In this document: positions 13,870-60,236 of the stretch, in pieces
Layout of the letters: each line of letters starts with the position of its first letter
Position numbering within the stretch: the first letter of the stretch is position 1
Virus record (IMG/VR): IMGVR_UViG_3300036766_000678
Coordinates: 62,001 to 126,000 of that record
Reading direction: 5' to 3' (one strand)
DNA from: a virus
Length of the DNA: 64,000 bases
The notes under the pieces: model-generated
Told to the model about the DNA's origin: nothing
Database searches by the model: none
Seen by the model: only the letters and a program-made list of their open reading frames with translations
Made by a program: the position numbers and the translations under genes

Positions 13870-14555
13870 TTTTTCCTCTTCTTTTTATCTTTTAATCTAA
13901 ATTTTTCTAAAAGCTTACCGTACCATTCTGAAACTTCTAGTAAATCACAACTATTACTTTTTGAAAAATTATCATGAGGAATCAAATATTGAAGATTCCA
14001 TGATACATGTAAACCAGAAATTTCATCCCCAAGTAAAGGAATATAATGATCTCCTTGCATTCCATCTGGTTTATTTATATAAAATTCATTTATTTTATTC
14101 CAATCTGTCCAAGCTACAACTCTAAGTTGCCTATTTGTTTCAGATTTTATTTTAGTTGCCTTAACTGATTCAGGATGCTTTTTTCTCCATTTTCGAACCT
14201 TTTCATTTACATGTTCTTGATGTTCCTGAACCCATTCTTTAGATCTTTTTAAACATTCTTCTCTATGACTCTTATAATAATCTCTATTCTTTTTATTAAT
14301 TTCATCTCTATGTTCTTCAATATATTCATGTTGTTGTTCGAGTATTTGGTCTCTTTTTGCCTCATATCTTTCTTTACCATATGCTATAATTTCTTTTTGA
14401 TGCTTTTCTTTATATTCTTGTTGTAATTCTCGGTTACATTCAGTACACATACCATTTTTAACTCTACCAACTATAAAGGTATCATGGCCATGCACACAAA
14501 ATTGTTTCAGAGGATTTTTACTTCCTTTTGGCCTACCTACTTTCTTTCTAGTCAC
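13866..14555 (-). CDS. HNH homing endonuclease, family A (229 aa)
   Basis: Starts with GTG preceded by AAGGAG. The N-terminus has the module QFCVHGHDTFIVGR plus CTEC, followed by about 90 residues of charged coiled helix (YKEKHQKEII...). The C-terminus carries GDHYIPLLGDEISGLHVSWN and EWYGKLLEKFRLK. It is the same family as 1546, 34342, 47653 and 54961. It is inserted between a baseplate gene and gp25-like gene. Confidence 0.87.
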   Translation of the reverse strand: MTRKKVGRPKGSKNPLKQFCVHGHDTFIVGRVKNGMCTECNRELQQEYKEKHQKEIIAYGKERYEAKRDQILEQQHEYIEEHRDEINKKNRDYYKSHREECLKRSKEWVQEHQEHVNEKVRKWRKKHPESVKATKIKSETNRQLRVVAWTDWNKINEFYINKPDGMQGDHYIPLLGDEISGLHVSWNLQYLIPHDNFSKSNSCDLLEVSEWYGKLLEKFRLKDKKKRKK

Positions 14556-23598: not shown

Positions 23599-23604
23599 TT
23601 TAAT

Positions 23605-23672
23605 TTCCTCGAAGGTGGTAGTCCATAGATAGGAATGTGCCTTCGAGTTCACACTCCCATCCATAGAGTACC
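23605..23672 (-). ncRNA. pseudoknot leader covering an endonuclease ribosome site (copy B)
   Basis: Stem 1 pairs 23664-23650 with 23639-23625 (15 bp with several G-U pairs). Its 10-nt loop (23649-23640, starting AACT) contains CTCGAAGG, which is fully complementary to CCTTCGAG at 23615-23608. A 3-bp TGG/CCA hairpin lies between (23625-23616). The 3' pseudoknot arm runs into the GAGGAAA ribosome site, so folding would block translation. The same architecture is present at 48474-48525. Confidence 0.75.
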
Positions 23673-27783: not shown

Positions 27784-28707
27784 TTAAAAATTACCTCTTT
27801 TTATTTTGTAAGGAATTTTTTTAATTTTCTTAGCCAATATAGGATTGTACCCTTTAGAATTTGGACTTATATAATAAGCCAATTTCATTTTTAACTGTCG
27901 TTCTTTTTTATTATTAGATTTTCTAGTGGGACGATACCCATGTTTATTAATAAACTTAAAAATTTCATTTTCTACTTTTTTTAATTTATATACAGTGAAA
28001 GTTGGAAATCTATTTATCTTTTTCTCAAAATTTAGATCATATGCAGAACCATTATGGTTTAAATATACGCTTAGGGCATTACCCAATATAGATTCATATT
28101 TATTATCTGTTTGATATACTGGCCTATATCCATACTTTTTACAAAATTCTAATATTTCGTTCTTTCTATCTTCTGCTCCTTTAATAGCTTTATCAGGATA
28201 TTTAGAAATTATTTTTGCAAATTCTGGGTCATACGAAAAAGTTGTTTTTCCCATATACATACGTAAAGCATTACCTAAAAATCTTTCTCTTTTAGTTCCA
28301 GTTCCACTAGAGGGCCTATACCCAAATTTTTTAATAAATTTTAAAATATTCTTTTTATTTTTAATTGTTTGTGGCTCTGGACCAAATTTTATTCCAAAAT
28401 TACTTTCTGCAATCTTACGAATATTGTACCCAAATTTATCATCATAACTTTGCAGCTTATCCATCCAATATTGCTCTCTTTTTTCTAATTTCTTTTTAGT
28501 TGGATTCTTTATAATTTCAAGTATTTTAAATACAAAGTTATCTTCTCCATATTTATTCCAAGCATTTTGAAGATACGGATTTTCATGTTTATTAAAAAAA
28601 AGATCATGGAAATGCATAGTATTTCTATGAGATAAATCTCCAGAACTACCTACATATCCTTTCCCATTAATCTTATTTACTATCCTGTAAATACCTGATT
28701 GTTTCAT
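27784..28707 (-). CDS. GIY-YIG homing endonuclease with three C-terminal repeats (307 aa)
   Basis: Catalytic domain: SGIYRIVNKINGKGYVGSSG, then HRNTMHF, then NKYGEDNFVFKILEI. After the linker with QYWMDKLQSYDDKFGYNIRK come three repeats of about 70 residues, each with the pattern KFIKKFGYRPSSGTGTKRE..LGNALRMYM; they resemble helicase-associated-type repeats and probably bind DNA. The start codon is 7 nt from a TATAAT box and lacks a ribosome site, so the message is probably leaderless. Confidence 0.88.
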   Translation of the reverse strand: MKQSGIYRIVNKINGKGYVGSSGDLSHRNTMHFHDLFFNKHENPYLQNAWNKYGEDNFVFKILEIIKNPTKKKLEKREQYWMDKLQSYDDKFGYNIRKIAESNFGIKFGPEPQTIKNKKNILKFIKKFGYRPSSGTGTKRERFLGNALRMYMGKTTFSYDPEFAKIISKYPDKAIKGAEDRKNEILEFCKKYGYRPVYQTDNKYESILGNALSVYLNHNGSAYDLNFEKKINRFPTFTVYKLKKVENEIFKFINKHGYRPTRKSNNKKERQLKMKLAYYISPNSKGYNPILAKKIKKIPYKIKRGNF

Positions 28708-34341: not shown

Positions 34342-35226
34342 CTATTTTAAACCTGCTTGTTCTAAAATTTTACCATACCATTTTGAAATTTCTACTAAAT
34401 TTGCTTTATTATATTTAATAGTATTATCATGTGGAGTTAAATACTGTAAGTTCCATGATACATGTAATCCACTTACTTCATCACCTTGTAAAGGAATGTA
34501 ATGATCTCCTACCATATCATCTGGCATTTTATCATAAAACTCTATAATTTTATTCCAATCGGCCCATAAAGGAACACGTAATTTACGATTTATTTTGGTT
34601 TTTATTTTTGAAGCTTTAATTACATTACGATGTGCCTTTTCCCATCTTTTTCTCATGGTTATAACTTTTTCTGGATTTTCTTTAGCCCATTGTTTATTAC
34701 GTTCTAAAATTTGTTTTTTATTCTTTTCATACCTTTTTCTGTTTCTAAGTTTAAGTATCTCTTTATTCTTATCTCTCCATTCCTTAGATTTTAATTTAAG
34801 TTCTTCCTTATGTTCCCCTCTATATTCTTTATTCCTAGCTGAAATAGCATCTTTATTTTCTTCATAAAATTTTTTCCCAAATTCTTTTTCAGCTAATCTT
34901 TGGCATTCAATACAACATCCATTATATTTATCTCTTCCTACTGCAAATGTATCGTGACCTTTCGGACAAAATTGTTTAATACGAGAATCTTTTGTAGGAT
35001 CTTTACGTTGCTTTAATTTACTACATTCTCTACAATATCCATCTTTAGTTCTTCCTACAATGTCTTTATCATGGCCTTTAGGACAAAATTGGGTTTTTCT
35101 TGAAATTGGAGTTTTTAATCCCAAAGAAACTGGTCTTTTACAACCATTACATTGGCCATTTTTAGCTCTTCCAAAAATGAAAGTATCATGTCCCTGTGGG
35201 CAAAACTGTTTAATTGGCGCAGCCAT
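34342..35226 (-). CDS. HNH homing endonuclease, family A, with three zinc modules (294 aa)
   Basis: The N-terminal module QFCPQGHDTFIFGRAKNGQC occurs here three times in a row (also QFCPKGHDKDIVGRTKDGYC and QFCPKGHDTFAVGRDKYNGC), followed by a charged helix and the C-terminal HNH part GDHYIPLQGDEVSGLHVSWN and KWYGKILEQAGLK. It is the longest member of the family and suggests that the zinc module can multiply. It lies between two virion genes and has an AAGGAAAG ribosome site. Confidence 0.88.
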   Translation of the reverse strand: MAAPIKQFCPQGHDTFIFGRAKNGQCNGCKRPVSLGLKTPISRKTQFCPKGHDKDIVGRTKDGYCRECSKLKQRKDPTKDSRIKQFCPKGHDTFAVGRDKYNGCCIECQRLAEKEFGKKFYEENKDAISARNKEYRGEHKEELKLKSKEWRDKNKEILKLRNRKRYEKNKKQILERNKQWAKENPEKVITMRKRWEKAHRNVIKASKIKTKINRKLRVPLWADWNKIIEFYDKMPDDMVGDHYIPLQGDEVSGLHVSWNLQYLTPHDNTIKYNKANLVEISKWYGKILEQAGLK

Positions 35227-38599: not shown

Positions 38600-39013
38600 T
38601 TATGATAAATAATCTAACGCATTTTGTAAAAATATTTTATTATCTTTAAGTAACCCAAGTGCCATATTACAAGATCGACAAAGTAACCCTCTAATCTCAT
38701 CAGTATCATGATTATGATCAATTACTAAAATTTCATTTAATTGACTTTGATGTTTTTTACATATTCTACAAAGACCTTTTTGATCTTGAAATAGCTTATT
38801 ATAATCTTCTAATGATATATTAAACGTATGTTTTAATCTATAGCCTCTTATTTTATCAGGATTTTCTTTTTCCCATTTTTTATGATATTCATTACCATAT
38901 TTTGTACGATAAGCCTTTCTGCAATCATTACACATACTATTTTTGGTTCGACCACAAACAAAGGTATCATGGCCATGGGTACAAAATTGCTTTTTAGATC
39001 CTTTAATTGCCAT
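38600..39013 (-). CDS. endonuclease VII-type HNH nuclease with GHDTF zinc module (137 aa)
   Basis: The C-terminal 85 residues match the recombination endonuclease VII family: LCRICKKHQ, LVIDHNHDTDEIRGLLC and RSCNMALGLLKDN, with zinc cysteines and the DHNH-like catalytic region. The N-terminus carries QFCTHGHDTFVCGRTKNSMC, the module otherwise found on the family A HNH proteins. This looks like domain swapping between unrelated nucleases. AAGGAG ribosome site present. Confidence 0.87.
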   Translation of the reverse strand: MAIKGSKKQFCTHGHDTFVCGRTKNSMCNDCRKAYRTKYGNEYHKKWEKENPDKIRGYRLKHTFNISLEDYNKLFQDQKGLCRICKKHQSQLNEILVIDHNHDTDEIRGLLCRSCNMALGLLKDNKIFLQNALDYLS

Positions 39014-39657: not shown

Positions 39658-39844
39658 ACAGAAATTCTAAATACTCAAGATTGTCAGATGGAACATACTG
39701 CATACACCATGGTTTATAAACACCACCTAAAATCCTTGCAGCTACAGCAACTCGTTCACGTTCACATGGTAGCATTTGACTTAATCCATGACAATCATCA
39801 TGCCCACAAACTCTACAGGAACTATTGAACATTTTTCTGCTCAT
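39629..39844 (-). CDS. cysteine-rich NLEYLE-tail protein (71 aa)
   Basis: MSRKMFNSSCRVCGHDDCHG, then a segment with AVAARILGGVYKP, WCMQYVPS and DNLEYLEFLYEKKKEVKI. Its start overlaps the 3' end of the Vsr-like endonuclease gene. First in a stack of three family members. Start could also be the Met at residue 5. Confidence 0.68.
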   Translation of the reverse strand: MSRKMFNSSCRVCGHDDCHGLSQMLPCERERVAVAARILGGVYKPWCMQYVPSDNLEYLEFLYEKKKEVKI

Positions 39845-40916
39845 TGATATGGGCTTCAATCTGATTTACACAGGCTTTAACGTCTTTTTTAATTTCATGC
39901 TCCCAAAAACGGAAGACTTTGTAACCACATTTTGTTAAATAAGCATTCTGAGATTTATCTATAGCCCGACGTTTGGCAATACCTGCAAATTCATTTACCT
40001 TATGCTCTAAACAACCATGCCAGTAACAGCCATCTGAAAAAATAATAATTTTATATTCTTCAATAACTGCGTCAACTAAAAATTTATTAAATAAAACTTT
40101 TTGGGTTTCAAAAGGAATATTTCGTTTTGTTAATTCTTCTTCAATAGCCACTTCAATTTTTGTATGATCAAATTTAGAAGCACCAATCCAAGCCCATTTA
40201 TCAATTTCACCAGAAGCAATAAGTCTTTTTCTAGTTTTAGATTGTTTCTTAGCTGCTTTTGCAATAATAGGACTATCTTCTTTTGTTAATCCAGAATTCC
40301 ATCCTGCTCCTGGACCAAATGCATTACCAAATTTTTCAATGTGTGTTTGTTGACTTTTCTCCTGTCTAGCTTGAATTTGCTCAGGAGTCATAAAATAATC
40401 AGGACGTTTTAATTTGCCTTCTGCAAATAGTTTCTTACGGGATTCTGATAGATTTTCAGCATTAATTTTTATACGAGGATCTGTCTCTTTTGTATGGCCT
40501 TCGTTCCAATTCAAATTACTACGATTATAAGAACCTTCTTGTTCAAAACCATTTCGTCTTAAATGCCCTTCTAAAATATGGCGAGAAATATTTAATTCAG
40601 CGGCAACATCTGTCATATTACTATTTTTAACTTTATCAATTAACTCTTGCACATTTAAAGATTCAATCCAACGAAATCTCTTTTGCAATCTACGAGCACT
40701 CCCATTTTCAACTCGTTTTGCATCAGCTTTTAATCGAATAGTTGCGTAATCTTGTTGAATATTGAAATGTTCTTTTAATCGCTTAATAATAACAGACCCG
40801 CATTTCCACTTTTTCAATAAAATAGAATAAGATTCAACAGTAAGTTCTTCTTTTAGAAGTTCTTTATTTGGGTACTCATCTAAAATTCGTTGAAATGTAG
40901 TATACATACCTATCAT
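39822..40916 (-). CDS. Vsr-like homing endonuclease with HTH and NUMOD-like repeats (364 aa)
   Basis: C-terminal nuclease core: FLVDAVIEEYKIIIFSDGCY then WHGCLEHK, KSQNAYLTKCGYKVFRFWEHE, a close match to the Vsr fold (Asp, WHGC zinc-like and FWE). The middle has WNEGHTKETDPRI and WNSGLTKEDSPII, NUMOD3-like DNA-binding repeats also present in the 46354 GIY-YIG protein. The N-terminus contains a helix-turn-helix-like region (SNMTDVAAELNISRHILEGH). A promoter lies so close that starts further upstream are unlikely; ATG at 40907 is an alternative start. Confidence 0.84.
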   Translation of the reverse strand: MIGMYTTFQRILDEYPNKELLKEELTVESYSILLKKWKCGSVIIKRLKEHFNIQQDYATIRLKADAKRVENGSARRLQKRFRWIESLNVQELIDKVKNSNMTDVAAELNISRHILEGHLRRNGFEQEGSYNRSNLNWNEGHTKETDPRIKINAENLSESRKKLFAEGKLKRPDYFMTPEQIQARQEKSQQTHIEKFGNAFGPGAGWNSGLTKEDSPIIAKAAKKQSKTRKRLIASGEIDKWAWIGASKFDHTKIEVAIEEELTKRNIPFETQKVLFNKFLVDAVIEEYKIIIFSDGCYWHGCLEHKVNEFAGIAKRRAIDKSQNAYLTKCGYKVFRFWEHEIKKDVKACVNQIEAHINEQKNVQ

Positions 40917-40920
40917 TATA

Positions 40921-40949
40921 AATATATCATAAAAAGCATTATTTTGCAA
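40921..40949 (-). promoter_or_regulatory. promoter of the Vsr-like endonuclease
   Basis: Minus strand TTGCAA (40949-40944), 17 bp, TATATT (40926-40921), TGA extension. ATGs follow 4 and 13 nt after the -10 box. Confidence 0.65.
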
Positions 40950-40971: not shown

Positions 40972-42174
40972 CTACGGAGAATTCCATGAAAATGCTGAAT
41001 TATGGACAATCACACCGTCTGCATTATAGGAATGCTGCCCCTCAACACTCAAATCATAAACCTTTCCTGTGTAATCAAAGGTAGTAATATTTGTAATTTG
41101 CTGGGTAACTAAATTGATACCTACTAAACAAGAATCCCCAACTTTTAAGTCACTAGCAGGAACCCATCTTTGATCAAAAAGAAGAACCTCATGATTGCCT
41201 GTCATTTTCAAAATTCGTTTCCCAACTCTAATATCATACATAGGCTCTGAAATGTATTTTGAAATTTTGTCATAAACTTTATGAAATTTCCCATCGGAAG
41301 ATAAAACTTTCATACCAACTTTCACCTTTGTCAATGGCATATAGCCAAGAGAAGTGAGTATTCGAGTAGTATCCAAGAAACAACCAAGGCTGATTTTTAA
41401 AAATTGACCGATTTGTGACTGGAAGCGGCTGTGGCCCAAACCGGCTGCACCCACTTTAAACACAACAGTCTTTTTGTAATTCATTTTCATCTTATCGTAG
41501 AATTGCAACATATTCACGTATGATTGATTTATTTTTTCCACCTGATTTATATTCAAGGAAATTCCGTTATCATTGTACGCGAAGTCCTCCAAACCAGCCC
41601 TTTGTTGATAAAACAAATCTGCAAATAAAGAAATTCCAAAATATAAAAGATTAGCCAAATTAGGATCATTAGCCACACTATCAAATGTCAAATTTGTTAA
41701 AGGTGGCATGAAATTAATATCAGCCAAAATCAAATTTGAAAATGCCAAAATCTGGTAATCTTGTGTATTTCTACTAAAAATTTCTGGCATGAGTTTTCTA
41801 CTCTGAGAAATTACTTGCTGTTCAGAAGTAGAAAATTGACTTGGATTTGGACCATTGACTCCTGTTAACGTAGTCAAACTTGTAACAGTACCAAATGCCG
41901 TTGCATTTGTTCCAATACTATCGATAGCAGCAGCTAGGCGAACAGAATAATTCGTTCCTGGAGTTGTATTAATAACTTTTATCATTGTGGTATTAAGCCA
42001 CAATTGAACAGGTTGAATTATTCCAGTACTTTCAACGAACCCGCCAGTTCCACTAAAAATTACCTGAATAGCATAGAACGTGCCTGGGGGGTTGTTGTCT
42101 GGGGTCACTGTCACTAAAAATGAATTAGTTGTGACGTTGGATATAAACGGGGGCTGAGGCACACTGAGCGACAT
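40972..42174 (-). CDS. FN3 virion protein carrying a C-terminal mini-intein (400 aa precursor)
   Basis: Residues 1-110 form an FN3-like domain (PFISNVTTNSFLVTVTPDNN ... TPGTNYSVRLAAAIDSIG). Residues 130-264 are helical (QQVISQSRKLMPEIFSRNTQ ... NQSYVNMLQFYDKMKMNY). Residues 265-392 are a mini-intein and the C-extein is just SAFSWNSP. After splicing the product would be 272 aa ending ...QFLKISLGSAFSWNSP. It lies between the 296-aa virion protein and an endonuclease gene. Virion role inferred from neighbours. Confidence 0.8.
   Translation of the reverse strand: MSLSVPQPPFISNVTTNSFLVTVTPDNNPPGTFYAIQVIFSGTGGFVESTGIIQPVQLWLNTTMIKVINTTPGTNYSVRLAAAIDSIGTNATAFGTVTSLTTLTGVNGPNPSQFSTSEQQVISQSRKLMPEIFSRNTQDYQILAFSNLILADINFMPPLTNLTFDSVANDPNLANLLYFGISLFADLFYQQRAGLEDFAYNDNGISLNINQVEKINQSYVNMLQFYDKMKMNYKKTVVFKVGAAGLGHSRFQSQIGQFLKISLGCFLDTTRILTSLGYMPLTKVKVGMKVLSSDGKFHKVYDKISKYISEPMYDIRVGKRILKMTGNHEVLLFDQRWVPASDLKVGDSCLVGINLVTQQITNITTFDYTGKVYDLSVEGQHSYNADGVIVHNSAFSWNSP
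40999..41382 (-). other. mini-intein (128 aa)
   Basis: Begins CFLDTTRILTSLGYMPLTKV (block A, nucleophile Cys1), has TGNHEVLLF (block B with the conserved T and H) and ends YDLSVEGQHSYNADGVIVHN (blocks F and G, His-Asn), followed by Ser+1. All splicing residues are present and no endonuclease domain is inserted. Confidence 0.9.
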
Positions 42175-46353: not shown

Positions 46354-47097
46354 TTAGTTTCCCCCAAACTTCAATTTCAATGTTTTTTTAATACTATCAG
46401 ATTGTTTTTGTAATCGAGGATCTGTCTCTTTTGTTAAACCAGTATTCCAAGATTTAATAGCATCTGGTAGCCCTTTATTCCAAGGCACTTGATTATACTT
46501 TTTTCCTTTATTTGGAGAAGGTTTACCTAATCTTACTTCAATCATATGTGCTCTATAAATAGGATCTTTCCATCTTTCAATAGCAGCTTTTTTTAAAATA
46601 TCTTTATGTTCTTGAGATAGGGTATGACCTGTTGAGCTAGATTTACCTAAATGTGCCAGACGATTTTTCTCTTTGGCTTCTTCTGTATGGTGTTTCCCAA
46701 AAAATGGGTTTCCCGCCCCTAAAAATTGAATTTTTTTCTTCACACTCATCTTTTCACGAGATTCTTTAGAACGTTTAAGGCCCAAACTTGTACCAGCTTT
46801 TGGTGCTATATTATAGCCAATTTCTGGATTAACACTATTATAATAGTCCATCCAATATTGCTCTCTTATTTCTAGCAATTCTTTTGTTGGATTTTCAATT
46901 CTTTCTATTACAGAAAATTCAAATGCTTCTTCACCATATTTGTTCCAGGCAGCTTGCAAATGAGGATTATGATGCAGATCTTTTCTCAATAAACGTTTAT
47001 GTTCACACCATCTTTTAGAGAAATCAATAGCAGATCCAATATATGGTTTACCATTTACTTTATTTAGAATTTTATAAATTCCACTTTTAGTAACCAT
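46354..47097 (-). CDS. GIY-YIG homing endonuclease with NUMOD-like tail (247 aa)
   Basis: Catalytic domain: SGIYKILNKVNGKPYIGSAI, RWCEHKRLL and NKYGEEAFEFSVIE. The tail has SLGLKRSKESREKMSVKKK, NPFFGKHHTEEAKEKNR and WNKGLPDAIKSWNTGLTKET, repeated NUMOD3-like units. It lies 1 nt upstream of the fibre gene with AGGTG as ribosome site. Confidence 0.9.
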   Translation of the reverse strand: MVTKSGIYKILNKVNGKPYIGSAIDFSKRWCEHKRLLRKDLHHNPHLQAAWNKYGEEAFEFSVIERIENPTKELLEIREQYWMDYYNSVNPEIGYNIAPKAGTSLGLKRSKESREKMSVKKKIQFLGAGNPFFGKHHTEEAKEKNRLAHLGKSSSTGHTLSQEHKDILKKAAIERWKDPIYRAHMIEVRLGKPSPNKGKKYNQVPWNKGLPDAIKSWNTGLTKETDPRLQKQSDSIKKTLKLKFGGN

Positions 47098-47098
47098 A

Positions 47099-47653
47099 CT
47101 ATTTCACCTGTAAATTTGAAAGACGTAACGTGAGGTTGTTCTTAAACTGACTTGAGGGTGTTTTACTTGAGATTTCTTTTAGTAGATCTATATTCCCGTT
47201 CTCCTTGATGAAACGCAACTTTAAGAAATGTGACAATTTGCAGAAATCTTCGTAAGAAAATACTTTTGTCAAATCTGTAATAGGTTCACTTTGGGATACA
47301 GAAACTTGATTCACTATCTTTACTTCAGGTAAAATTTGTTGTGGAGGAACTTCTGTTTGTGTTGGTAAAATTTGTGTATTTTGTTCAATAGATTCTACAT
47401 GTAAAACGAGTTTTTCTTCTGGAATTTCTTCTATCCATTTTCCATTAAGATAGCCCTTAAGACTTCCTACTTTAAAACTCTTTCTTACGTCCTCATCATC
47501 CAAGACATCAAAAGGTATTTCCTGACCCTCTTTGACCTCTAATGGTTGGGAAAAGCCATTTGAATAGGTAACATTCAAATCTAAAAATTTCAAAGTAGTA
47601 CTACACTCTTTAGCATTTTTAATACAGACACGATATCTTTTTTGCTTTTCCAT
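47099..47653 (-). CDS. hypothetical protein (184 aa)
   Basis: Starts MEKQKRYRVCIKNAKECSTT. The first 90 residues look like a compact beta domain; a proline/glutamine-rich linker (TQTEVPPQQILPEVK) leads to a helical C-terminus. No family recognised. It overlaps the end of the HNH gene by 1 nt. Confidence 0.55.
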   Translation of the reverse strand: MEKQKRYRVCIKNAKECSTTLKFLDLNVTYSNGFSQPLEVKEGQEIPFDVLDDEDVRKSFKVGSLKGYLNGKWIEEIPEEKLVLHVESIEQNTQILPTQTEVPPQQILPEVKIVNQVSVSQSEPITDLTKVFSYEDFCKLSHFLKLRFIKENGNIDLLKEISSKTPSSQFKNNLTLRLSNLQVK

Positions 47654-48465
47654 TATCTTTTTCGTCCTCTTTTCTTTGGCTTTTTATCTTTTAGTCCTGC
47701 TTGTTCTAACAATTTACCATACCACTCAGAAGCTTCTAATAAATCTATATTATTATTTTTAACCCTATTAGCATGTGGAGTCAAATATTGTAGATTCCAA
47801 ATAACATGTAACCCAGATACAAAATCACCTTGCAAAGGAATATAATGATCTATTTCCATACCATTGGGTTTATTGGTATAGAATGTTTTAATTCCTCTTT
47901 GACCAAATTTAGGAATTCTAGATTTTCTTTTTATTTCTTGTTTTGTATTTGATAATCTATGTACTTCTGGATGAGCATCCCTATATTCTTTTGATTTAAT
48001 ATAAATTTCATCTTTGTGATCTTGGAAATATTTTCTATGATACTCTAAGATTTCCTCAAGATGAGTTAGATAATATTCTTTAGCTTTTGCTAAATTATCT
48101 AGATAATATTGACTATGATATTCTCTTCTTCTAATTTTAATTTCTTGCTTATTAATTTGAAAATAAATTTTTGCATATTCTTTAAGTTCTTCTAAATGTT
48201 CCTGCCTATATTTTTCATTATATGATCTTTTTTCTTCTTTATGTTCAAGTCTATATTTTATTTTACATAAATGGCATTCGCTCCATTCATCTCTACCACA
48301 TATAAAAGTATCATGCCCTCTTGAACAAAATTGCTGTTTAGGACGACCAATAGACCCTGGATGCCTTTCATCTATACATTGGTTGCATTGACTATTTTTA
48401 GTTTTACCACATATAAATGTGTCGTGGCCATAAATACAAAATTGCTTTTTCCATCCTTTAGCCAT
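47653..48465 (-). CDS. HNH homing endonuclease, family A (270 aa)
   Basis: Two N-terminal zinc modules (QFCIYGHDTFICGKTKNSQC and QFCSRGHDTFICGRDEWSEC), a charged helix with repeating EYHSQYYLDNLAKAKEYYL-like segments, then IDHYIPLQGDFVSGLHVIWN and EWYGKLLEQAGLKDKK. The AAGGAG ribosome site is part of a pseudoknot-like leader. Mobile gene inserted between the module protein at 48593 and the 184-aa gene. Confidence 0.88.
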   Translation of the reverse strand: MAKGWKKQFCIYGHDTFICGKTKNSQCNQCIDERHPGSIGRPKQQFCSRGHDTFICGRDEWSECHLCKIKYRLEHKEEKRSYNEKYRQEHLEELKEYAKIYFQINKQEIKIRRREYHSQYYLDNLAKAKEYYLTHLEEILEYHRKYFQDHKDEIYIKSKEYRDAHPEVHRLSNTKQEIKRKSRIPKFGQRGIKTFYTNKPNGMEIDHYIPLQGDFVSGLHVIWNLQYLTPHANRVKNNNIDLLEASEWYGKLLEQAGLKDKKPKKRGRKR

Positions 48466-49787: not shown

Positions 49788-49862
49788 TGGCTGCGAGGAC
49801 AAGATTCGAACTTGTAACCTTCTGTTTAACAGACAGACACTCTACCATTGAGTTACCTCGCA
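49788..49862 (-). tRNA. tRNA-Asn(GTT)
   Basis: Complete cloverleaf: acceptor TGCGAGG/CCTCGCA, D arm ACTC/GAGT, anticodon arm TCTGT-CTGTTAA-ACAGA (anticodon GTT), T arm ACAAG-TTCGAAT-CTTGT, discriminator G and encoded CCA. Confidence 0.92.
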
Positions 49863-50345: not shown

Positions 50346-50421
50346 TGGTGGACCAGACAGGTTCTGCCCCTGCTGCCTCGACATTGCAGGTGTCGCGCTC
50401 TCCTAATTGAGCTACTAGCCC
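50346..50421 (-). tRNA. tRNA-Ala(TGC), atypical T loop
   Basis: Acceptor GGGCTAG/CTGGTCC (two wobbles), D arm GCTC/GAGC, anticodon arm CGACA-CCTGCAA-TGTCG (anticodon TGC), T stem GCAGG/CCTGT, discriminator A, encoded CCA. Position 33 is C instead of T and the T loop GGCAGAA lacks TTC. Confidence 0.68.
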
Positions 50422-51504: not shown

Positions 51505-51586
51505 TTACGGAAGTGTAATACGAACAATTCCCTTTGCATATCGAACAAGAAACCCAATATCTTCCCAAATCTTCCTGTTACTTAAA
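51505..51586 (-). CDS. major capsid exon 5
   Basis: Reads (L)LSNRKIWEDIGFLVRYAKG and IVRITLP then stop. Starts after the intron 4 terminal G at 51587. Confidence 0.78.
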
Positions 51587-54218
51587 CCTTTTATCAAGGC
51601 GAGTAATTATTTCTAATTACTTCTTCATATTTCTATGAAGTTCGGACTATAACTTCATCCTTTCGGAGTCAGGCGTTTAGTCTCTACGGATTCTGAAAAC
51701 TTCTTCAGTCTTTCCTCGGTATTGTCTTCAACATTACTTGGTAAGAGTTCCACCGATACGGCCTAATTTTACTTCACCATTTGGAGGTACAATTTCTTGC
51801 ACACTTGTTTTATTTTAGCGAAGACATCTGCCATCTTATTAACCATTATGTTACGACTCTCTTTGCAAAGAAAGCGGTTAATCATTTCTGATTAACTCTT
51901 CATATTTCTATGAAGTTCGGATCATGTCATTATCTTTCGATATTCTGTGTATGATCTCTACACATTTCCTTATTTCTAAGGGTTAGCTCGAAGTTGCCTT
52001 TTGCCTTTCGGCAGTCAGGTTTTCTTCGAATTAGCAGAATTTTAGAAGGACATTAAAAATATTAGAAACTATTTTTAGAAGTTTATCCTTCATCGTTTCA
52101 ACTAAGAGGTCAGTACGAACAGCCAACACGCCAAGATAATCAGCGGGAGCGAGAACGTAACACTCTGAAGAAGGAACAACGACGGACTCTAGAACGTCAA
52201 CACCCATAATTCCACCTACGCGACCAGCTTTGAGGGCCATGTCCTGGAAATTAGGAGCGAAGATTCCTGCCCCGCCTGTACCAGAAGTAGTCGTATTGAA
52301 TAGAATTAGATCCTTACGTGTGAATGGATTGATCCATAGTTTGGAAGGAACCAAAAGCTTTGAGCTTAGAGTAACAATACCAGTTGCTAGGGCTTCCATC
52401 GTAAGTTTTGTTCCACCTGCGGAAAATACCGTAGGGTTGTTTGTTGCAGCACTCGTACCTGCGAGTGAAGCTACTGGGGTCTGATTCGTTAAGCCGGAGG
52501 CGAACAGAATCAACTGATAACCACGAGTATCTTCCTGTAGCATGATTGAGGCTTTTGCACGTTCTTGCTGTCTATTACTTTATGACCTACTGAGGTAGGC
52601 GGATAATTATTTCTAATTATCTCTCATTATTACTAATGAGGATGGACTATGACTTCACCCTGTTTAAGGGGCTCTACGTTTAGTCTCTGAGGATTTTGAA
52701 GATAATTAATAATTTTATTTTTAAGTTTCAAGACATCTTTTAACTCATAACTCCAAATAACAAGACATTCATGCCCGACTTCTTTGTATTGTTGAATTAC
52801 TTTAACTTCTTCATCTTTAGAATGAAAATGTTCTCCAAATAACTCAATCAATTTATTAGAATTTTTTACAACAAAGTCAGGATATTTTACATGCCCATCA
52901 TTTAAAATTACTTGAAAAGTAGCATCTCCAGTATATTCAATTTCAGAAAAACCTAAATTAAGAATCTGTTTCTCAGCATAGTTTGGTCTTTCACAACCAT
53001 TAGAAAGACATTCATGAGCAATCTCTCTAACCTTCATTACGTTATCTACTCCATATTTATTAAAAACACCATCTCTAGTTTTTAATTGAATTTCTGGAAC
53101 AGACAAAGTAGATTCAACACCATACTTATTTAAATTAGATTCTTTTCTATTTTCTACTGCTTTATCTTGGAAATCTGAAATCATCTCTTTCCAAGAATTT
53201 TGGTATTCTTCTGAATTATATTTACTATCTGGATCTTGCCATTTTTCTGAAACTTTAACACGTCGTTTGTCTTGAAATTCTTTAACTTGACTGGGATTAG
53301 AAACACCATACTTTTCCATACAAGTCTTTTTAGCTGAACTTATTCTCTTAACATTAAGAGAAGAATCTTCTAAAATAGCAAGTGGAAATTTCTGCCTATA
53401 GATATCAAAAGCCATACCATGTGTAAGCAAATGTGTTTTAGTAATCTTTAAAAAAGAATTCTGGCAAACTTCGCAATTAATCATTTTCAACCTTTCCTGC
53501 AAATTGTCCTCTTATTAATTATATCATAAAAGGATGTCCTTGCATATGGTAGAGTTTTACTAAATCTCTTTCGAGATTAGGAACCCATTGTGTTAAGTTC
53601 TGTTAAGAACATCATATTTCCTAAAATTACTTTCATTCCATCTAATCATAGGTCGAGTCGAAATAGGCGACGTTTCAACACGAATACGATCAGCTAGAAC
53701 TTCGAGCTGTTGGGGAAGTCCTTCTACACTAATAGATGCAGCAGGAACATCGAGATCAGCATCGAAAACAGCTTCCTCACCCAATGCCAACTTGTAGGTT
53801 TGGAATAGCTGACGAATACGGCCTTCATACAGAAGGTCTCGCTTTAGGGGCGATAACCATTATGTTAACTATATATTTCTATATAGATCGGACTATATCT
53901 TCATCCTATTTTATTAGGAGATCAACGTGTAGTCTCTACGGATTCTTGAAAACATCTTCAAGTCTTTCCTCGGTATTGTCTTGATAACGAACGTGCAAGT
54001 TCACCATCAGGTTTCCACCGATATAGTTGATTTTTTCCCATTCTCATTACTGAGAAGACAGACGTTTATGGTTGTGTATGGATAGGAGATTCTTTCAAAA
54101 TCTGTTGGGCGATCTTTTGAAGACCCCCAGGCGAATTCATCAGCCGAGTTAGTTTTTCTTCAACTTGGGCACTTGAAAGTACCTCGGATGAAGCTGTAAC
54201 ATTCAGCTTGTCATTCAT
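51505..54218 (-). CDS. major capsid protein, five exons split by four group I introns (323 aa)
   Basis: Reconstructed minus-strand exons: 54218-54100, 53857-53606, 52577-52085, 51842-51817 and 51586-51505. Together they give one frame of 323 codons plus stop. The protein starts MNDKLNVTASSEVLSSAQVE, continues through LSPLKRDLLYEGRIRQLFQT, VPAASISVEGLPQQLEVLAD, QQERAKASIMLQEDTRGYQL and ends NRKIWEDIGFLVRYAKGIVR-ITLP. The VPAASISVEG and WNESNFRK segments and the final strand fit HK97-fold capsid proteins. AAGGAG precedes the ATG. Exon 2/3 junction is the least certain. Position after protease/scaffold and decoration gene is the standard one for the capsid gene. Confidence 0.8.
51587..51816 (-). 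ncRNA. group I intron 4 in the capsid gene (230 nt)
   Basis: P1 pairs exon CTTCGCT with guide GGTGAAG 38 nt inside, with the required U-G at the splice site. The core contains AGAGACTAAACG and AAGTTATAGTCC (P7 strands) and P9 hairpin CTTCATAG/ATATGAAG. It ends in G. Confidence 0.85.
51817..51842 (-). CDS. major capsid exon 4 (26 nt)
   Basis: Encodes LIRWQMSSL (last codon completed by exon 5) between introns 3 and 4. Confidence 0.75.
51843..52084 (-). ncRNA. group I intron 3 in the capsid gene (242 nt)
   Basis: P1: exon GAAGGAT with guide GTCCTTC, a 7-bp helix ending in U-G, 33 nt inside. P7 strands GAGATCAT and ATGATCC covary with the GACTA/TAGTC pair of the other introns. P9 hairpin like that of intron 4; ends TAACATAATGG. 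Confidence 0.85.
52085..52577 (-). CDS. major capsid exon 3
   Basis: Largest exon: from (LN)RQQERAKASIMLQEDTRG through the P-domain and beta-strands to DLLVETMKD. Reading on past 52085 gives an artificial tail ending in a stop inside intron 3. Confidence 0.8.
52633..53484 (-). CDS. intron-encoded Vsr/PD-(D/E)XK-like homing endonuclease (283 aa)
   Basis: MINCEVCQNSFLKITKTHLL starts a short zinc-like region; the middle has three KYGV-type units (MEKYGVSNPSQVKEF, LNKYGVESTLSVPEI, FNKYGVDNVMKVREI), likely DNA-binding. The C-terminal 90 residues form the nuclease core: KYPDFVVKNSNKLIELFGEH, FHSKDEE, YKEVGHECLVIWSYEL. ATG at 53484 follows AGGAAAGG; a TTG six codons earlier is less likely. It lies inside intron 2 and has its own extended -10 promoter. 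Confidence 0.82.
   Translation of the reverse strand: MINCEVCQNSFLKITKTHLLTHGMAFDIYRQKFPLAILEDSSLNVKRISSAKKTCMEKYGVSNPSQVKEFQDKRRVKVSEKWQDPDSKYNSEEYQNSWKEMISDFQDKAVENRKESNLNKYGVESTLSVPEIQLKTRDGVFNKYGVDNVMKVREIAHECLSNGCERPNYAEKQILNLGFSEIEYTGDATFQVILNDGHVKYPDFVVKNSNKLIELFGEHFHSKDEEVKVIQQYKEVGHECLVIWSYELKDVLKLKNKIINYLQNPQRLNVEPLKQGEVIVHPH
53518..53546 (-). promoter_or_regulatory. extended -10 promoter inside intron 2
   Basis: ATGATATAAT with -10 at 53523-53518; -35 region poor (TATGCA). A 33-nt leader with AGGAAAGG precedes the endonuclease ATG. Confidence 0.5.
53606..53857 (-). CDS. major capsid exon 2
   Basis: Encodes (M)LSPLKRDLLYEGRIRQLFQT, YKLALGEEAVFDADLDVPAA, then SISVEGLP to RKYDV. The frame continues into intron 2 for a few codons before a stop. 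Confidence 0.8.
53858..54099 (-). ncRNA. group I intron 1 in the capsid gene (242 nt)
   Basis: P1: exon ACAGAT with guide GTCTGT, 36 nt inside, ending in U-G. P7 strands AGAGACTACACG and AAGATATAGTCC, P9 hairpin CTATATAG/ATATAG, end TAACATAATG. The segment around TATCGGTGGAA and GACAATACCGAGGAAAGACT is shared with intron 4. An alternative exon end at TCCT (guide GGGA) also keeps the frame. Confidence 0.83.
54100..54218 (-). CDS. major capsid exon 1
   Basis: Starts at ATG behind AAGGAGA; encodes MNDKLNVTASSEVLSSAQVE to LQKIAQQ(M). Reading on gives a false tail ending SPIHTQP. Confidence 0.8.
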
Positions 54219-54960: not shown

Positions 54961-55527
54961 CTATTTTAATCCTGCTTCTTCTAACAACTTACCATACCAT
55001 TCTGACACTTCAAGTAAATTGCATTTATTATGCTTTCGGGCATTCTGGGTTTGTGTAAGACATTGTAAATTCCAAGAAACATGTAATCCAGATACTTTTT
55101 TACCTTGCAATGGAATATAATGATCCCCAACCATATCATCTGGTTTATTTTTATAAAATTCAATTATATTATCCCAGTCTGTCCAAGCTACCTCTCTAAG
55201 ATTTCTATTTGTCTGATTTTTGATATTGTATGCTAAACATTTTTCTCGATTATTTATAAAATATTGCCTATCAATTTCGGCCTTTTGTTCTCTATGATTA
55301 TCCCACCATTCTTTTTGTTTGAGTGCTAAAATAGGGCCATTTTCAGTACGATAATCTTTCATTTTAGCCAAAAGAATATCTCTATGTTCTTGAAAATATT
55401 CTTTATAATAATTAGAGTTTTCTAAACTCCATTGCCTTTTACAATCATTACAAGCATTTCTGGAATCTCTTCCATAAATATTTGTGTCATGACCATGTTT
55501 ACAAAATTGAGATTTAGGTCTAGCCAT
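54961..55527 (-). CDS. HNH homing endonuclease, family A (188 aa)
   Basis: One zinc module (QFCKHGHDTNIYGRDSRNAC then C), charged helix (YKEYFQEHRDILLAKMKDYR), and the C-terminal part GDHYIPLQGKKVSGLHVSWN and EWYGKLLEEAGLK. It starts 2 nt after the protease/scaffold gene and has no clear ribosome site, so it may be translated by coupling. Confidence 0.87.
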   Translation of the reverse strand: MARPKSQFCKHGHDTNIYGRDSRNACNDCKRQWSLENSNYYKEYFQEHRDILLAKMKDYRTENGPILALKQKEWWDNHREQKAEIDRQYFINNREKCLAYNIKNQTNRNLREVAWTDWDNIIEFYKNKPDDMVGDHYIPLQGKKVSGLHVSWNLQCLTQTQNARKHNKCNLLEVSEWYGKLLEEAGLK

Positions 55528-55529
55528 GT

Positions 55530-58500
55530 TTATTTTTTAGGTACATCATTAATTGTCTTATGTTTTAATGTGCCCATACTTCTAAAAATATTTCCAACTT
55601 CGTCATGATCACTAGGATCATAAGTCAAATAAGGGACACGAGTGGCTTTCTTCTCATTAACTGTAGAAGAGGGCATTGGAAGTTCTTCAATAGCTTTTTC
55701 CATGGCCTTTAACGCCATATCATCGAAGGCAAGTAATTCTTTATGCTTGGCCTTAATTGCATGAGTCATAGCTTTATGACGAGCATCTAATAGATAAGTA
55801 CCAGATTTAAGTTCACTATCTAGTACATCTGGGCTCAATTGAAGAACATTTTTGTCAACCATATTAGCAACAATTTTCTGGCATCGTTCAGAACGTGCAG
55901 AAAGAATAGCAGCAAATTTCTTTGCTTTCTCTTCCTCTTGAGCCTTAACTTCAATAGCTTTTAGTTCGGCCTCTTTCTTAGAAATAGCTTCCTCACGAGT
56001 TTTAAGAGCAGATTCTTTCATACCCATTTCATCTTCATGAGCTTCTTCAAGTGCGGGATGCTCTTCAACTTTAGGAGCCTCTTCCATCTTAGGAGCTTCT
56101 GGCATAGCGGGAGCCATCTCAGGCTTTTTTTCCTCAACTGGAGGAAGACCAAGAACAGCTTTCATAAGCTTAAGCACTTCACCAACTTCTTTACCAAAAC
56201 CATCTGGCAATCTTTTAACTTCCTTGCCATCTTTCTCAATAATAACTTCTTTAGATTCTTTGTCCTTATGAGCAGAGTATCCTTCACCAATATCAAGTTT
56301 ATCTGCTTTATCAAATGCAGAAACTTCTTCTTTAGGAGTATCACCAGGGAGAGCTAAATTCTCAGTTTCGTGCTCAGGAACTCCAGCAGGTTTCTCTTCA
56401 ACCTTAACATCATCAACTAAAGGATCTGCGTGTTCAGGTGTAGGAGGCATTTCAGTTGCAGCAGATTTATTAACAGCCACATCTGGCTCTTTTGTAAGAT
56501 TAGGAGTAGTATGTTCTGTTTTACCTTTAACAGCTTCATCAGGCTTGCTAGAGGGATTAGAAGAAGGTTCCTTTTTATCCTTTACTGCTTGATCTGGTTC
56601 CTTAGTTAAATTAGGTGTCTTATTTACTTTATCCCCATCAACACTTGTTTCAGGAGTAGCAGATTTGCCTTCTTCTGGTAAAGTTGTACCCTTAACAGAT
56701 TCATCTGGTTTTGCATCAAATTTTTTCGTACCTTCTGGTAAAGTAGATCCATCAACTGCTTCTGTTGGTTTATCAGCTGCTTTCTTTTCCATAATAGTCT
56801 CCTGAGATGATTTCTTTGGAACATCCATACCCTTTTCTCTAGCTTCAGAATAGGCTGCTGCTACCGCTTGGGCTCGTTCCATTCCATCTTCTTTAATATG
56901 TTTTTCTACATGCTTCTTAATAAATTCTTGTGCTTCGGGTGTCATTGAAGACCACTTAATTTGTGCATTAGCTTCTTTATAATTAACAGAGGCTTTCTTT
57001 TCATCAACTAATTTGCAAGGTTTACCATTCATACTATGTCGTCCATATTCCAGCATCTCACCACATTCGGGACATTTTGTTGCTGCTTCTTTTTTAGAAC
57101 CCTTCTCTTCAGCTTCCATTTCCTCAGTTCCCTTAGCTACATAAGAAGTTTCAACCTCTTTCTCTGATTTCTCCAGTTTCTTCTCTTCTGGATTCTTAGG
57201 AGTAGTGGTAACTTCTTTACCTTCAGCTTCAGGCTTAGGTTCTGAATAATCTGTTTTTACTTCTTTTGCTTTAGGGGCGGCAGGTCCTGTTTGACCCTTT
57301 TCCTGCCCTGGCATTTTAAATTGTGGATCAGTCTTAGCATCTGTACCTGCTGGTGCTGCTGGACCTTTTTGAGCTTGTTCCTGTCCTGGTTTTGTTACTG
57401 GGGAATTTTTAACATTGTGTTCTTTATTATTTGTGCCAGTAGAAGGTTTTGCATAACTACCATCAGGTCCTAGTTCTGGACCTTTTGCGGTTTTATTTAA
57501 TTTATGTGTTACATCCCATAAATCAGCCAATTTCTCAATTCCTTCTTTAGTATAACGAGCAACAACCTCTTTACCATATGCTTCACTGGTTGCCCATTTC
57601 TGATCATCAAAAGAAAGTGTTTCAAATGTACTACCCCAAATATCTTTAAGAGAAGCATCTAATAGGCACTTAGCATCTTCATACACTGACCAAGTAGAAG
57701 CAAGTACATTATTTTTATCTTCATTAAATTTGGCTGAGATGGAAGATTTCTTATCTTTTTTCTTCCCATAATCACATGTTACACACGTAACTTCATCCCC
57801 CACTTTACGGGCAGCAACACTATCACAGTTTGGACATTTGACAAATTCTGTTTTAGCTGTTTCTTTTCCCAATTCCTCTTTAGCCACTGCTTCAACTTTC
57901 TTTTCCAATAATTGAGCAGCAAAGCTATCTTTTACTTTAGCCACAATTCTAGATAGAAATGTTTCTTCTTTCTTAGTGGCATCAGCAACCACTTCTTTAT
58001 TAACTACTTCGTTAGCTTTCTTGGTTTTATGCTGAATATAGCTCTCAAGTTGCTCCATTTCTAGGGCGGAAATTTTTGATAAAATCTTTTTTTGATCTTC
58101 GGATACAATATTCTTATCTGACATGGATGACTCCTTGGATGATTCTTGTGCTTCTTTATCAGTAGTTGGGCAAATTCCGCAGAACTCAGCCTTCAAATTT
58201 TTTGCTGTCTCTGAATCTACTTTAGTTAAAAGACCTTCAAATTGTTTTACAAAATCTTGTTGCTCATCTTTAGAAAGAGCGGCGGTTTTCGAAAGTCTGC
58301 TTCTCATATTGCTTAAAATTGTTTTCACAATCGCTTTAGGGTCTGCGGGAATTCCAACCAAAGACAATTCATTGAATGCAATCCCACTATTTAAAGACAT
58401 GGCTTTAACTTTTTGACCTTTAGAAATGTTATACTTAAGATTATCAACTTCAGCATCAAACTCATGTCCCAAAGAAAATGCTTCAAGATGTTTACAACGT

Positions 58501-60236
58501 GGATCAGCATCTGAATGAAGAACCAAACCACACACGCTACACGCACTTTCATCAACGGAACAATTGTGAACAGCAACACCATTAACAAGATAAGAATTTT
58601 TCTCTTTAACACTAAAATTATAGACAAGTAATTTTTGATCTTCTACTTCAATACCACTAATTGGGATCATTAAATAATTATTTACTAAAAGTTTCTGTTG
58701 TTTATTACCACCTACAGGCAAACCAGTAGGAATCTTATCACAATATTTTGCCATTTCATGTAATGATTCCCCTGAAATACAAATTCTATATGTTCTAGAG
58801 GCAGCAATTGTTTTAGTGCCACTTTTAAAATTAGCTATTTTTTCTTTATAATGCTTTTCTTCTAATGCAAAAAGAAGAGAAGCACGACAAAATAACCATG
58901 CCATCTGATAAATAAAAGCTTGGGAAGCAGTTTCCAAATAGGCACGTCTAATATGGGGATGAGCATCTTTTCTATTTATCTCTTCATAATCGCTATAGCA
59001 GCCATCCCCGCAAAGAAATGCTCCTAGAAGTTCTTTTTGGAATTCAATATTCCATAAAAGAACAGAGGGATCAAGCTTTTTAGTTTTAGCTTTTTCTCCA
59101 CCTAATTGCATTAATTTTTCTGCCAGTTCTTTATCATATATAAAAATACGGCAAGCATTTAATTTTGGATATTTCTTTATAGTTACTTTCTTTTTAGTAA
59201 TAGAGCTAATAAGGGTTTTAATCTCTTTAGCATATTTGGCTTCTTTTATATGCAAAGTAAACATTGCTCCACCAACTAAATTGCAACGACAAATCTTATT
59301 TACTTTTCTACATGGGTAACATTTATAATAAATAATATTGCCCTCTGCAAGATACCAACCTAAAAGACGTGCAAACTCTTTAGTTATATTATCGGGGGTT
59401 TTTTCTTCTTTAGAAAAGGGAAAAGATACATAATCCCCTGGACGAAGATTCTCAGCAGATATCCACTCAAAATATTTAGCATTACTGGCTATTTTTTCTA
59501 GGGATTGCCCAGTAATACTATGCCCTGCCTCAACTAAAGAGACAGAATTTAAAATATTAATTATGTTCTCTTTTTTTATGCTCCAAAAAGGATGTTCATT
59601 TGTGGCAGTAATAGGAAGTTTTGTAAATCCTAAAAGTTTTAAAGTATACATTAACCCGTCATAAGGTCTAATCATTGTTTCAATTACTTCATCAGAAAGA
59701 CCTAAATGATTTAAAACTTTATCCCCTACTTTGATATCTTCGATATTTTTAAAGGTATGATCGGATAGTAAAATTTGGGTCCCTTCTTTAAAACAACCCA
59801 TACTCACCGTGTTCAAAATACCAGTTTGAACTTGCCTCGCTAGTTCAGGAAATAAATATTTATCGAGCTTCGCTAATACTTCAATATATTTCTCACCAGT
59901 CTCTGGATCTTCAACAGGATATGAGTCGATGAGTCTGCCCACGGCTTTCAAAACCGAATCAGCCGAATGGTCTATGTACAATCCCTTTCCTTGAAAAGAA
60001 GCATAACTTTTTAAAAGATCATCCCAACCAAACGCATCCCAATTGCCGTTAGCTCCATTTGTTTCATAACTTGAAATTGCACGAGCCCTCAGATACAAAA
60101 ACTGTTCGTTTTTAGGTTCAATGATATGTGAAGATCCTGGAACCTTTTCTTCCATAGGACGATCAATCAATAATTCTTCCACTGCTGCGGCAGTTTTTAA
60201 AATCTTCCATGAAGAACCAATTTTTTGTAATGACAT
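55530..60236 (-). CDS. prohead maturation protease-scaffold fusion interrupted by an intein (1568 aa precursor)
   Basis: Residues 1-147 and 559 onward form the protease: IDH at 88-90 gives the candidate catalytic His and VSMG at 144-147 the candidate Ser145, followed after the intein by CSVDESACSVCG with zinc-like cysteines. Residues 148-558 are the intein. From about 640 the chain becomes a long charged region with two zinc-like knuckles (CPNCD...CVTC near 800, KCPECG near 1060) and extended Lys/Glu/Pro repeats (KPDEAVKG, TPNLTKEPD) ending in helices (EMGMKESALKTREEAISKKE). That resembles scaffold fused to the protease as in many phages; the fused gene is intact throughout. Confidence 0.82.
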   Translation of the reverse strand: MSLQKIGSSWKILKTAAAVEELLIDRPMEEKVPGSSHIIEPKNEQFLYLRARAISSYETNGANGNWDAFGWDDLLKSYASFQGKGLYIDHSADSVLKAVGRLIDSYPVEDPETGEKYIEVLAKLDKYLFPELARQVQTGILNTVSMGCFKEGTQILLSDHTFKNIEDIKVGDKVLNHLGLSDEVIETMIRPYDGLMYTLKLLGFTKLPITATNEHPFWSIKKENIINILNSVSLVEAGHSITGQSLEKIASNAKYFEWISAENLRPGDYVSFPFSKEEKTPDNITKEFARLLGWYLAEGNIIYYKCYPCRKVNKICRCNLVGGAMFTLHIKEAKYAKEIKTLISSITKKKVTIKKYPKLNACRIFIYDKELAEKLMQLGGEKAKTKKLDPSVLLWNIEFQKELLGAFLCGDGCYSDYEEINRKDAHPHIRRAYLETASQAFIYQMAWLFCRASLLFALEEKHYKEKIANFKSGTKTIAASRTYRICISGESLHEMAKYCDKIPTGLPVGGNKQQKLLVNNYLMIPISGIEVEDQKLLVYNFSVKEKNSYLVNGVAVHNCSVDESACSVCGLVLHSDADPRCKHLEAFSLGHEFDAEVDNLKYNISKGQKVKAMSLNSGIAFNELSLVGIPADPKAIVKTILSNMRSRLSKTAALSKDEQQDFVKQFEGLLTKVDSETAKNLKAEFCGICPTTDKEAQESSKESSMSDKNIVSEDQKKILSKISALEMEQLESYIQHKTKKANEVVNKEVVADATKKEETFLSRIVAKVKDSFAAQLLEKKVEAVAKEELGKETAKTEFVKCPNCDSVAARKVGDEVTCVTCDYGKKKDKKSSISAKFNEDKNNVLASTWSVYEDAKCLLDASLKDIWGSTFETLSFDDQKWATSEAYGKEVVARYTKEGIEKLADLWDVTHKLNKTAKGPELGPDGSYAKPSTGTNNKEHNVKNSPVTKPGQEQAQKGPAAPAGTDAKTDPQFKMPGQEKGQTGPAAPKAKEVKTDYSEPKPEAEGKEVTTTPKNPEEKKLEKSEKEVETSYVAKGTEEMEAEEKGSKKEAATKCPECGEMLEYGRHSMNGKPCKLVDEKKASVNYKEANAQIKWSSMTPEAQEFIKKHVEKHIKEDGMERAQAVAAAYSEAREKGMDVPKKSSQETIMEKKAADKPTEAVDGSTLPEGTKKFDAKPDESVKGTTLPEEGKSATPETSVDGDKVNKTPNLTKEPDQAVKDKKEPSSNPSSKPDEAVKGKTEHTTPNLTKEPDVAVNKSAATEMPPTPEHADPLVDDVKVEEKPAGVPEHETENLALPGDTPKEEVSAFDKADKLDIGEGYSAHKDKESKEVIIEKDGKEVKRLPDGFGKEVGEVLKLMKAVLGLPPVEEKKPEMAPAMPEAPKMEEAPKVEEHPALEEAHEDEMGMKESALKTREEAISKKEAELKAIEVKAQEEEKAKKFAAILSARSERCQKIVANMVDKNVLQLSPDVLDSELKSGTYLLDARHKAMTHAIKAKHKELLAFDDMALKAMEKAIEELPMPSSTVNEKKATRVPYLTYDPSDHDEVGNIFRSMGTLKHKTINDVPKK
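58563..59795 (-). other. LAGLIDADG intein at the protease active site (411 aa)
   Basis: Block A CFKEGTQILLSDHTFKNIED with Cys1; block B TATNEHPFW; endonuclease motifs LLGWYLAEGN (intein residues 144-153) and LLGAFLCGDG (256-265), both ending in the acidic catalytic position; blocks F/G YNFSVKEKNSYLVNGVAVHN; Cys+1. All splicing residues present. It sits two residues after the presumed catalytic serine. Confidence 0.93.

Follow-up and report, generated by a model that had tools for sequence, protein, structure and literature searches.

Four predicted group I introns in the major capsid protein gene of an uncultured tailed phage

Several described systems come close to the locus considered here, the major capsid protein (MCP) gene of an uncultured tailed phage, which lies on the minus strand of a 64,000-nucleotide stretch of DNA (the window; bases 62001-126000 of the 180,416-base IMG/VR record IMGVR_UViG_3300036766_000678) and contains four group I introns. 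In mycobacteriophage LittleE, the MCP gene likewise carries an intron, with U before it, G at its end and an endonuclease inside, and its splicing was proven by reverse transcription PCR and N-terminal sequencing (Pope et al. 2013, PMC3706429). The MCP of a crAss-like phage of the Zeta group (cMAG OLRF01000054) is encoded, according to the passages on this gene in Yutin et al. (2021, PMC7886860), by an open reading frame (ORF) broken into five pieces; of the four segments between these, three encode group I intron-type domains. Several group I introns occur within one phage gene also in the polymerase and terminase genes of Bastillevirinae (PMC11878797), and many are found in core genes of the Jug phages, with a mean of 18.5 per genome and with metatranscriptome reads backing 37 of 76 predicted introns (PMC12363816). 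Finally, the psbA gene of cyanophage S-PM2 combines a group I intron with a downstream homing endonuclease gene, F-CphI, the product of which targets the intron site (PMC5931967); such collaborative homing is known in T4-like phages and cyanophages (PMC2988022; PMC5931967).

The interrupted capsid gene

The MCP gene of the window runs from an ATG at 54218 to a TAA ending at 51505, and consists of five exons separated by four introns of 242, 1028, 241 and 246 nt. The joined exons amount to 957 nt, or 318 codons, with no internal stop. Exons 1, 2, 3 and 5 of the following list are based on the alignment of relatives' MCPs and on spliced alignment.

54100..54218, minus strand: MCP exon 1, 119 nt, from the ATG to the AT of codon 40, MNDKLN...IAQQ(M), ending ...CAACAGAT
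53596..53857, minus strand: MCP exon 2, 262 nt, LSPLKRD...VLNRT
52085..52567, minus strand: MCP exon 3, 483 nt, QERAKAS...VETMKD
51817..51843, minus strand: MCP exon 4, a micro-exon of 27 nt, GTTAATAAGATGGCAGATGTCTTCGCT, VNKMADVFA
51505..51570, minus strand: MCP exon 5, 66 nt including the stop, IWEDIGFLVRYAKGIVRITLP and stop

Relatives were collected by scanning viral contigs with the exon-3 protein, which gave 49, and with the exon-2 protein, which gave 61 loci, many of them from the same contigs. The MCP was uninterrupted (about 318 residues) in most of the 49 relatives and in almost all of the 61 loci. Because the intact MCPs align across each junction, the junctions are known to the base; they read AQQM/LSPL, NRT/QERAK, ETMKD/VNKM and ADVFA/IWED. 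The same five exons were recovered by a spliced-alignment programme supplied with the protein of one relative and the rule 'T before, G at end', while spliced alignment of a short slice dropped exon 1 as an edge effect. Randomisation of single exons lowered the alignment score by 36 units (27-nt exon) to more than 660 units, every short exon making its contribution. The VNKMADVFA peptide of the micro-exon is identical in the intact relative L002, the DNA of which differs synonymously. Read without splicing, the gene yields unrelated tails and early in-frame stops at all four introns.

The initial annotation had placed a capsid gene with four group I introns at these same coordinates, which is borne out by the relatives' alignment, by the spliced alignment and by the covariance models described below. 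Two of its details have to be corrected: the joined frame had been given as 323 codons, and the junction peptide MKDLIRWQ, offered for mass spectrometry, is out of frame, as the relatives fix ETMKD/VNKMADVFA/IWED around the 27-nt exon.

Concerning the identity of the protein, the first joined draft of 304 amino acids, used as the query, matched the PHROG 2522 major head protein (E 1.9e-21, residues 10-301), and a profile of 20 intact relatives matched the structure of the capsid protein gp27 of Bacillus phage G (6wkk, E 7.8e-37). Direct search gave matches to named phages at 29% (phage G), 27% (Tunturiibacter phage Tunturi_5) and 24% (Mycobacterium phages). The best fold match of an AlphaFold model of an intact relative was to HK97 capsids (E 1e-6), but the model was of low confidence (pLDDT 56) and was not relied on. 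The PHROG and phage G matches agree with the capsid assignment made at the outset. No second MCP copy, which the initial annotation had named as evidence against its proposal, was found in the 180-kb record.

The spliced protein shows 40 amino-acid differences from its two nearest relatives, with 132-146 further codons differing synonymously. The corresponding nonsynonymous divergence (dN) is 0.12 and the synonymous one (dS) 1.5-2.3, with dN/dS about 0.05-0.08. Since dN is far below dS, the spliced MCP is under strong purifying selection.

Group I features of the introns

The four introns were compared with the Rfam model Intron_gpI (RF00028) and with a covariance model, R1, built from the introns of other contigs only, without the sequence of the window. 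The results are as follows.

53858..54099, minus strand: intron 1, 242 nt, without ORF; P1 ACAGAU/GUCUGU, terminal G, P10 of 3 bp; RF00028 58.9 bits, R1 112.7 bits
52568..53595, minus strand: intron 2, 1028 nt; P1 GAACU/GGUUC; RF00028 41.6 bits, E 4e-8; R1 39.0 and 24 bits
52624-52759 and 53414-53556, minus strand: 3' and 5' halves, respectively, of the intron 2 core
51844..52084, minus strand: intron 3, 241 nt, without ORF; P1 GAAGGAU/GUCCUUC, P10 of 5 bp, compensatory P7 GAUCAU/AUGAUC; RF00028 48.8 bits, E 9.5e-12; R1 89.7 bits
51571..51816, minus strand: intron 4, 246 nt, without ORF; P1 CUUCGCU/GGUGAAG, P10 of 7 pairs; RF00028 41.6 bits, E 1.4e-9; R1 140.5 bits

The matches to RF00028 (E 3e-13 to 4e-8) were obtained on small stretches; the Rfam search at the scale of the window overlooked introns 3 and 4, both of which were detected in short slices. 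At gathering score, Rfam gave nothing in the remainder of the 180-kb record. When R1 was run over the 180,416 bases, the four strong matches were all inside the MCP gene (E 3e-31 to 8e-7), and a weaker fifth corresponded to the 5' half of intron 2, which carries P4-P6 upstream of its ORF; R1 found no match outside the MCP gene in the whole record.

The P7 strands are AGAGACTA/TAGTCC in introns 1, 2 and 4, and GATCAT/ATGATC, a compensated pair, in intron 3. In a set of 47 intron cores, 95.1% of the cells of the four helices P4-P7 were paired, and two-sided changes occurred in 17 of 18 pairs, compared to 9.9 in shuffles, none of 500 shuffles reaching as high. Sliding the helix partners abolished this covariation signal. 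P3 of the P3/P7 pseudoknot is visible in the Rfam alignments of the introns, the covariation set covering P4-P7, and P8/P9 are also present.

At the junctions defined by the protein, U ends every 5' exon and G ends every intron. A P1 guide helix with U-G at the cut was found at all four donors, with shuffle p values of 0.01, 0.05, 0.007 and 0.033 for introns 1 to 4, respectively. The P10 pairings of introns 3 and 4 form runs of a length that is rare in these two introns (about 1% of positions), while P10 has only 3 pairs in intron 1 and 2 in intron 2. On these features, the four are classed as group I introns. The initial annotation had recognised the four P7 pairs, including the covarying one, and three of the guide helices, all of which hold, and had missed the fourth, that of intron 2; the search against Intron_gpI that it had proposed matched all four introns.

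Relatives of the introns and neighbouring endonuclease genes

Over 111 nt, the identity between introns 1 and 4 is 84%, and a 51-nt segment in P9 is 86% identical between introns 3 and 4. These similarities indicate that some of the four, if not all, have a common descent or have exchanged sequence, introns 1 and 4 probably sharing an ancestor. When intron 4 was compared to the genomes of isolated phages, only matches of 40-50 nt were obtained. Among the relatives of the window MCP, the intron of L034 and L049 is 90% and 89% identical, respectively, to intron 4 over 161 nt, but it interrupts the MCP at a different site, RYA/KG; its target is CUACGCU instead of CUUCGCU, and its guide is altered to match. 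The relative L025 has another intron, with an endonuclease ORF, at a further MCP site, GG/LQK. Three introns are located near the C-terminal end of the MCP:

L034, 5370-5614: C-terminal MCP intron
L049, 5370-5611: C-terminal MCP intron
L120, 11405-11699: C-terminal MCP intron

The L034/L049 intron begins with a 30-nt copy of the downstream exon: it reads KSIVKIVVS-stop, against KGIVKIVVS-stop in the exon, and the two agree at 19-20 of the 30 nt. The last intron of L120 reads RIININSSI-stop, the spliced form being RIINIAP-stop. As the intron start copies the displaced coding end, the unspliced RNA of L034, L049 and L120 would still encode a near-complete MCP. The window introns show no such C-terminal coding copy.

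A wider sample was obtained by searching viral contigs for exact copies of a 20-nt piece of the intron-1/4 core, which gave 13 stretches. Two are the already mentioned relatives L034 and L049; six (L058, L060, L062, L063, L067 and L120) match other major head protein families; three (L056, L057 and L066) are homologous to L060/L062; and L055 is judged capsid-like by sequence and position only. In the remaining one (L059, 2927-3239), an intron akin to window introns 1, 3 and 4 lies in the portal protein gene of another phage. In a comparison set with a sister core motif, about 14 of 56 loci had upstream exons that matched major head protein families, most of the others lying in terminase, tape measure and other genes. 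The capsid share was thus 12/13 versus 14/56 (p 1e-5), in a small sample with some related contigs. In seven whole records (792 kb), six of them picked for having MCP introns and some also used to train R1, all R1 matches were inside MCP genes. The same core 20-mer was also present in two contigs of bacterial metagenome-assembled genomes (L139 and L140), one labelled Candidatus Gottesmanbacteria.

The capsid genes of L056 (4364-7757), L057, L058, L060, L062, L063, L066 and L067 contain introns of this type too, from one to about six per gene, some with LAGLIDADG-like ORFs. The most extreme case is L120 (3939-11717 of IMGVR_UViG_3300032053_000045, overlapping L064), of a PHROG 267-like MCP family, with 16 introns and 17 exons, several of the latter of 11-30 nt. 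Each inferred intron has one R1 match, and the rest of the 73.8-kb contig has none. Exons 1 and 2 of L120 are weak by protein score, but their 8-bp guide helices are present. A solution with 14 introns was discarded, as its exon 1 fell inside the upstream protease gene; masking that gene led to 15 introns, and the covariance model added the 16th. Relatives in the L120 capsid family (L124, L125, L128, L130 and L131) carry between one and three introns in the MCP gene, each about 0.85-1.2 kb long.

Two endonuclease genes are associated with the window MCP:

52633..53502, minus strand: intron-2 ORF, predicted homing endonuclease, 289 aa from a TTG, the likely start being the ATG within KMINCEV; it overlaps P7
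50660..51388, minus strand: free-standing GIY-YIG homing endonuclease gene (Pfam GIY-YIG, E 3.4e-13), beginning 117 nt past the MCP stop

The intron-2 ORF matches Pfam DUF7487 (E 9.7e-16) and the homing endonucleases PHROG 3339 and 12131, and its motif YPDF...IELFGEHFHS resembles, by eye, a Vsr-like nuclease motif. The GIY-YIG gene is a candidate mobility helper for the introns without ORF. A similar endonuclease gene is found 3' of the MCP in every intron-bearing relative, and MCP introns occurred in 4 of 10 contigs with the downstream gene versus 0 of 44 without it (Fisher 7e-4, kinship ignored). The position of an endonuclease gene beside an intron-bearing one fits collaborative homing.

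Other elements of the window include two predicted inteins on the minus strand, at 55530-60236, in a prohead protease-like protein adjoining the MCP, and at 40972-42174, in a putative structural protein. About a dozen ORFs resembling free-standing endonucleases lie between virion genes:

1546-2064, 9186-9689, 13866-14555, 22159-23664, 27784-28707, 34342-35226: endonuclease-like ORFs, by eye
38600-39013, 47653-48465, 54961-55527: endonuclease-like ORFs, by eye
46354-47097, 39822-40949: endonuclease-like ORFs, with GIY-YIG/NUMOD3 and Vsr-like domains confirmed for these two only

Two tRNA genes are located near the MCP on the minus strand, at 49791-49862 (74.5 bits) and 50349-50421 (43.7 bits).

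Interpretation and comparison with known systems

Considering all the evidence, it is very probable that the four group I introns all have to be removed for the production of a 318-residue MCP, presumably of the HK97 fold. External guanosine would attack after the U of the P1 U-G pair formed by the guide sequence and the 5' exon, and the freed exon would then attack after the terminal G, P10 aligning the 3' exon. Several points weigh against this interpretation. Three of the four introns score under the Rfam gathering threshold (50 bits), though with small E-values. Intron 2 is the weakest, as shown by its R1 score, and in its 3' half only P7 is clear; as its ORF overlaps the P7 region, reduced splicing of this intron is possible. 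Both the removal of the introns by splicing and its efficiency are what we infer from the sequence. The contig is metagenome-assembled and maybe incomplete, so another MCP may exist outside it. Finally, the endonuclease-intron association rests on few, related contigs.

The in-frame stops in all four introns and the divergence of intron 2, the most distant from the model, could be taken to mean that the gene is dead, broken by introns or their remnants in a phage that uses another capsid gene or has a defective genome. This is very unlikely, because the 318 joined codons run without stop or frameshift and with dN far below dS, the splice sites are exact with P1 and P10 kept, and the 180 kb hold no other MCP. 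Even less credible, to the point of being negligible, is that the insertions arose as artefacts or chimeras of the assembly: the metagenomic origin of the contig would allow it, but each insertion is a complete ribozyme that starts after U and ends in G exactly at a protein-defined junction, and independent contigs have introns of this kind elsewhere in their MCP genes. The introns could also be retained as useful rather than as neutral parasites, their splicing delaying or tuning MCP output. The location of all the detected introns of the genome in this one gene is in favour of such a role, the near-complete MCP given by the unspliced reading of some relatives' C-terminal introns is compatible with selection on the unspliced message, and splicing of the cyanophage psbA intron was reported to be light-responsive (PMC5931967). 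On the other hand, the MCP genes of most close relatives are intact and intron-free, which makes the introns dispensable, and their patchy distribution and the nearby endonucleases fit selfish spread, so a useful role seems improbable.

As to the origin of the introns, it seems reasonable to interpret that the four would have been acquired singly, one after another, their spread being probably aided by the intron-2 endonuclease and the downstream GIY-YIG gene through collaborative homing, while now and then an intron would have moved locally to a new site in an MCP transcript, possibly through reverse splicing. Mobility could instead be due to endonuclease homing alone, by DNA break and repair, the clustering in MCP genes reflecting conserved MCP DNA and adjoining endonuclease genes. 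This has a considerable chance of being correct, if somewhat less than even: endonuclease ORFs occur in intron 2 and in L025, and the downstream GIY-YIG gene correlates with the introns, but closely similar cores occupy different sites with re-fitted guides, whereas simple homing returns to the same site, and they have spread across MCP families unrelated in sequence. A broader proposal, to be taken as rather doubtful, is that a lineage of small group I introns would be specialised on phage MCP genes, moving between sites and unrelated capsid families by reverse splicing into abundant late mRNA, with the guide re-fitted, and reaching up to 16 copies per gene; at the 3' end the intron could carry a copy of the displaced coding end, so that the unspliced message would still encode capsid protein.

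As a rule, the MCP is one of the phage proteins made in the largest amounts, and is usually very abundant late in infection. In the phage considered here four ribozymes, and in another phage 16, would have to fold and react before a virion forms, with exons down to 11-27 nt between them. Such genes provide a natural test of the efficiency and order of multi-intron self-splicing, and of exon skipping, and the concentration in capsid genes makes the spread of ORF-less group I introns to new sites directly testable, as homing versus reverse splicing. Moreover, a capsid gene split into short exons is easily missed, and introns may be the reason why certain contigs appear to have no MCP.

The initial annotation considered four introns in one structural gene unusual, which is fair, but a precedent exists in the crAss-like gene (PMC7886860). 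A phage MCP gene with more than one group I intron is therefore not new in kind, and one MCP intron has been proven to splice (PMC3706429). Compared to OLRF01000054, for which the passages on this gene in PMC7886860 give neither exact splice sites nor ribozyme anatomy, the window gene belongs to another phage group, and has three of four introns without ORF, exact junctions and one 27-nt exon. LittleE has one intron versus four here, its type being given as 'most likely group I' (PMC3706429). Bastillevirinae and phage Twort are reported to have at most three introns per gene, and the word 'capsid' is absent from the main text of that report (PMC11878797). In S-PM2 there is a single intron in a photosynthesis gene (PMC5931967). 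The introns of the Jug phages are in terL, nrdD and polymerase genes, and are not concentrated in one MCP gene (PMC12363816). In the literature covered, which leaves out most subscription journals, nothing was found on introns confined to capsid genes, on a phage gene with 16 introns or on a C-terminal copy; nor did it yield any micro-exon lying between group I introns of a phage, which is not proof of absence. The added interest of the locus lies in its exact anatomy, its 27-nt exon, the restriction of the introns to one gene of the genome and the wider capsid pattern. What is new with respect to the known systems is the occurrence of R1-type cores only in MCP genes across the seven whole records, with the selection indicated above, and the presence of 16 of them in one unrelated MCP gene, with exons down to 11 nt.

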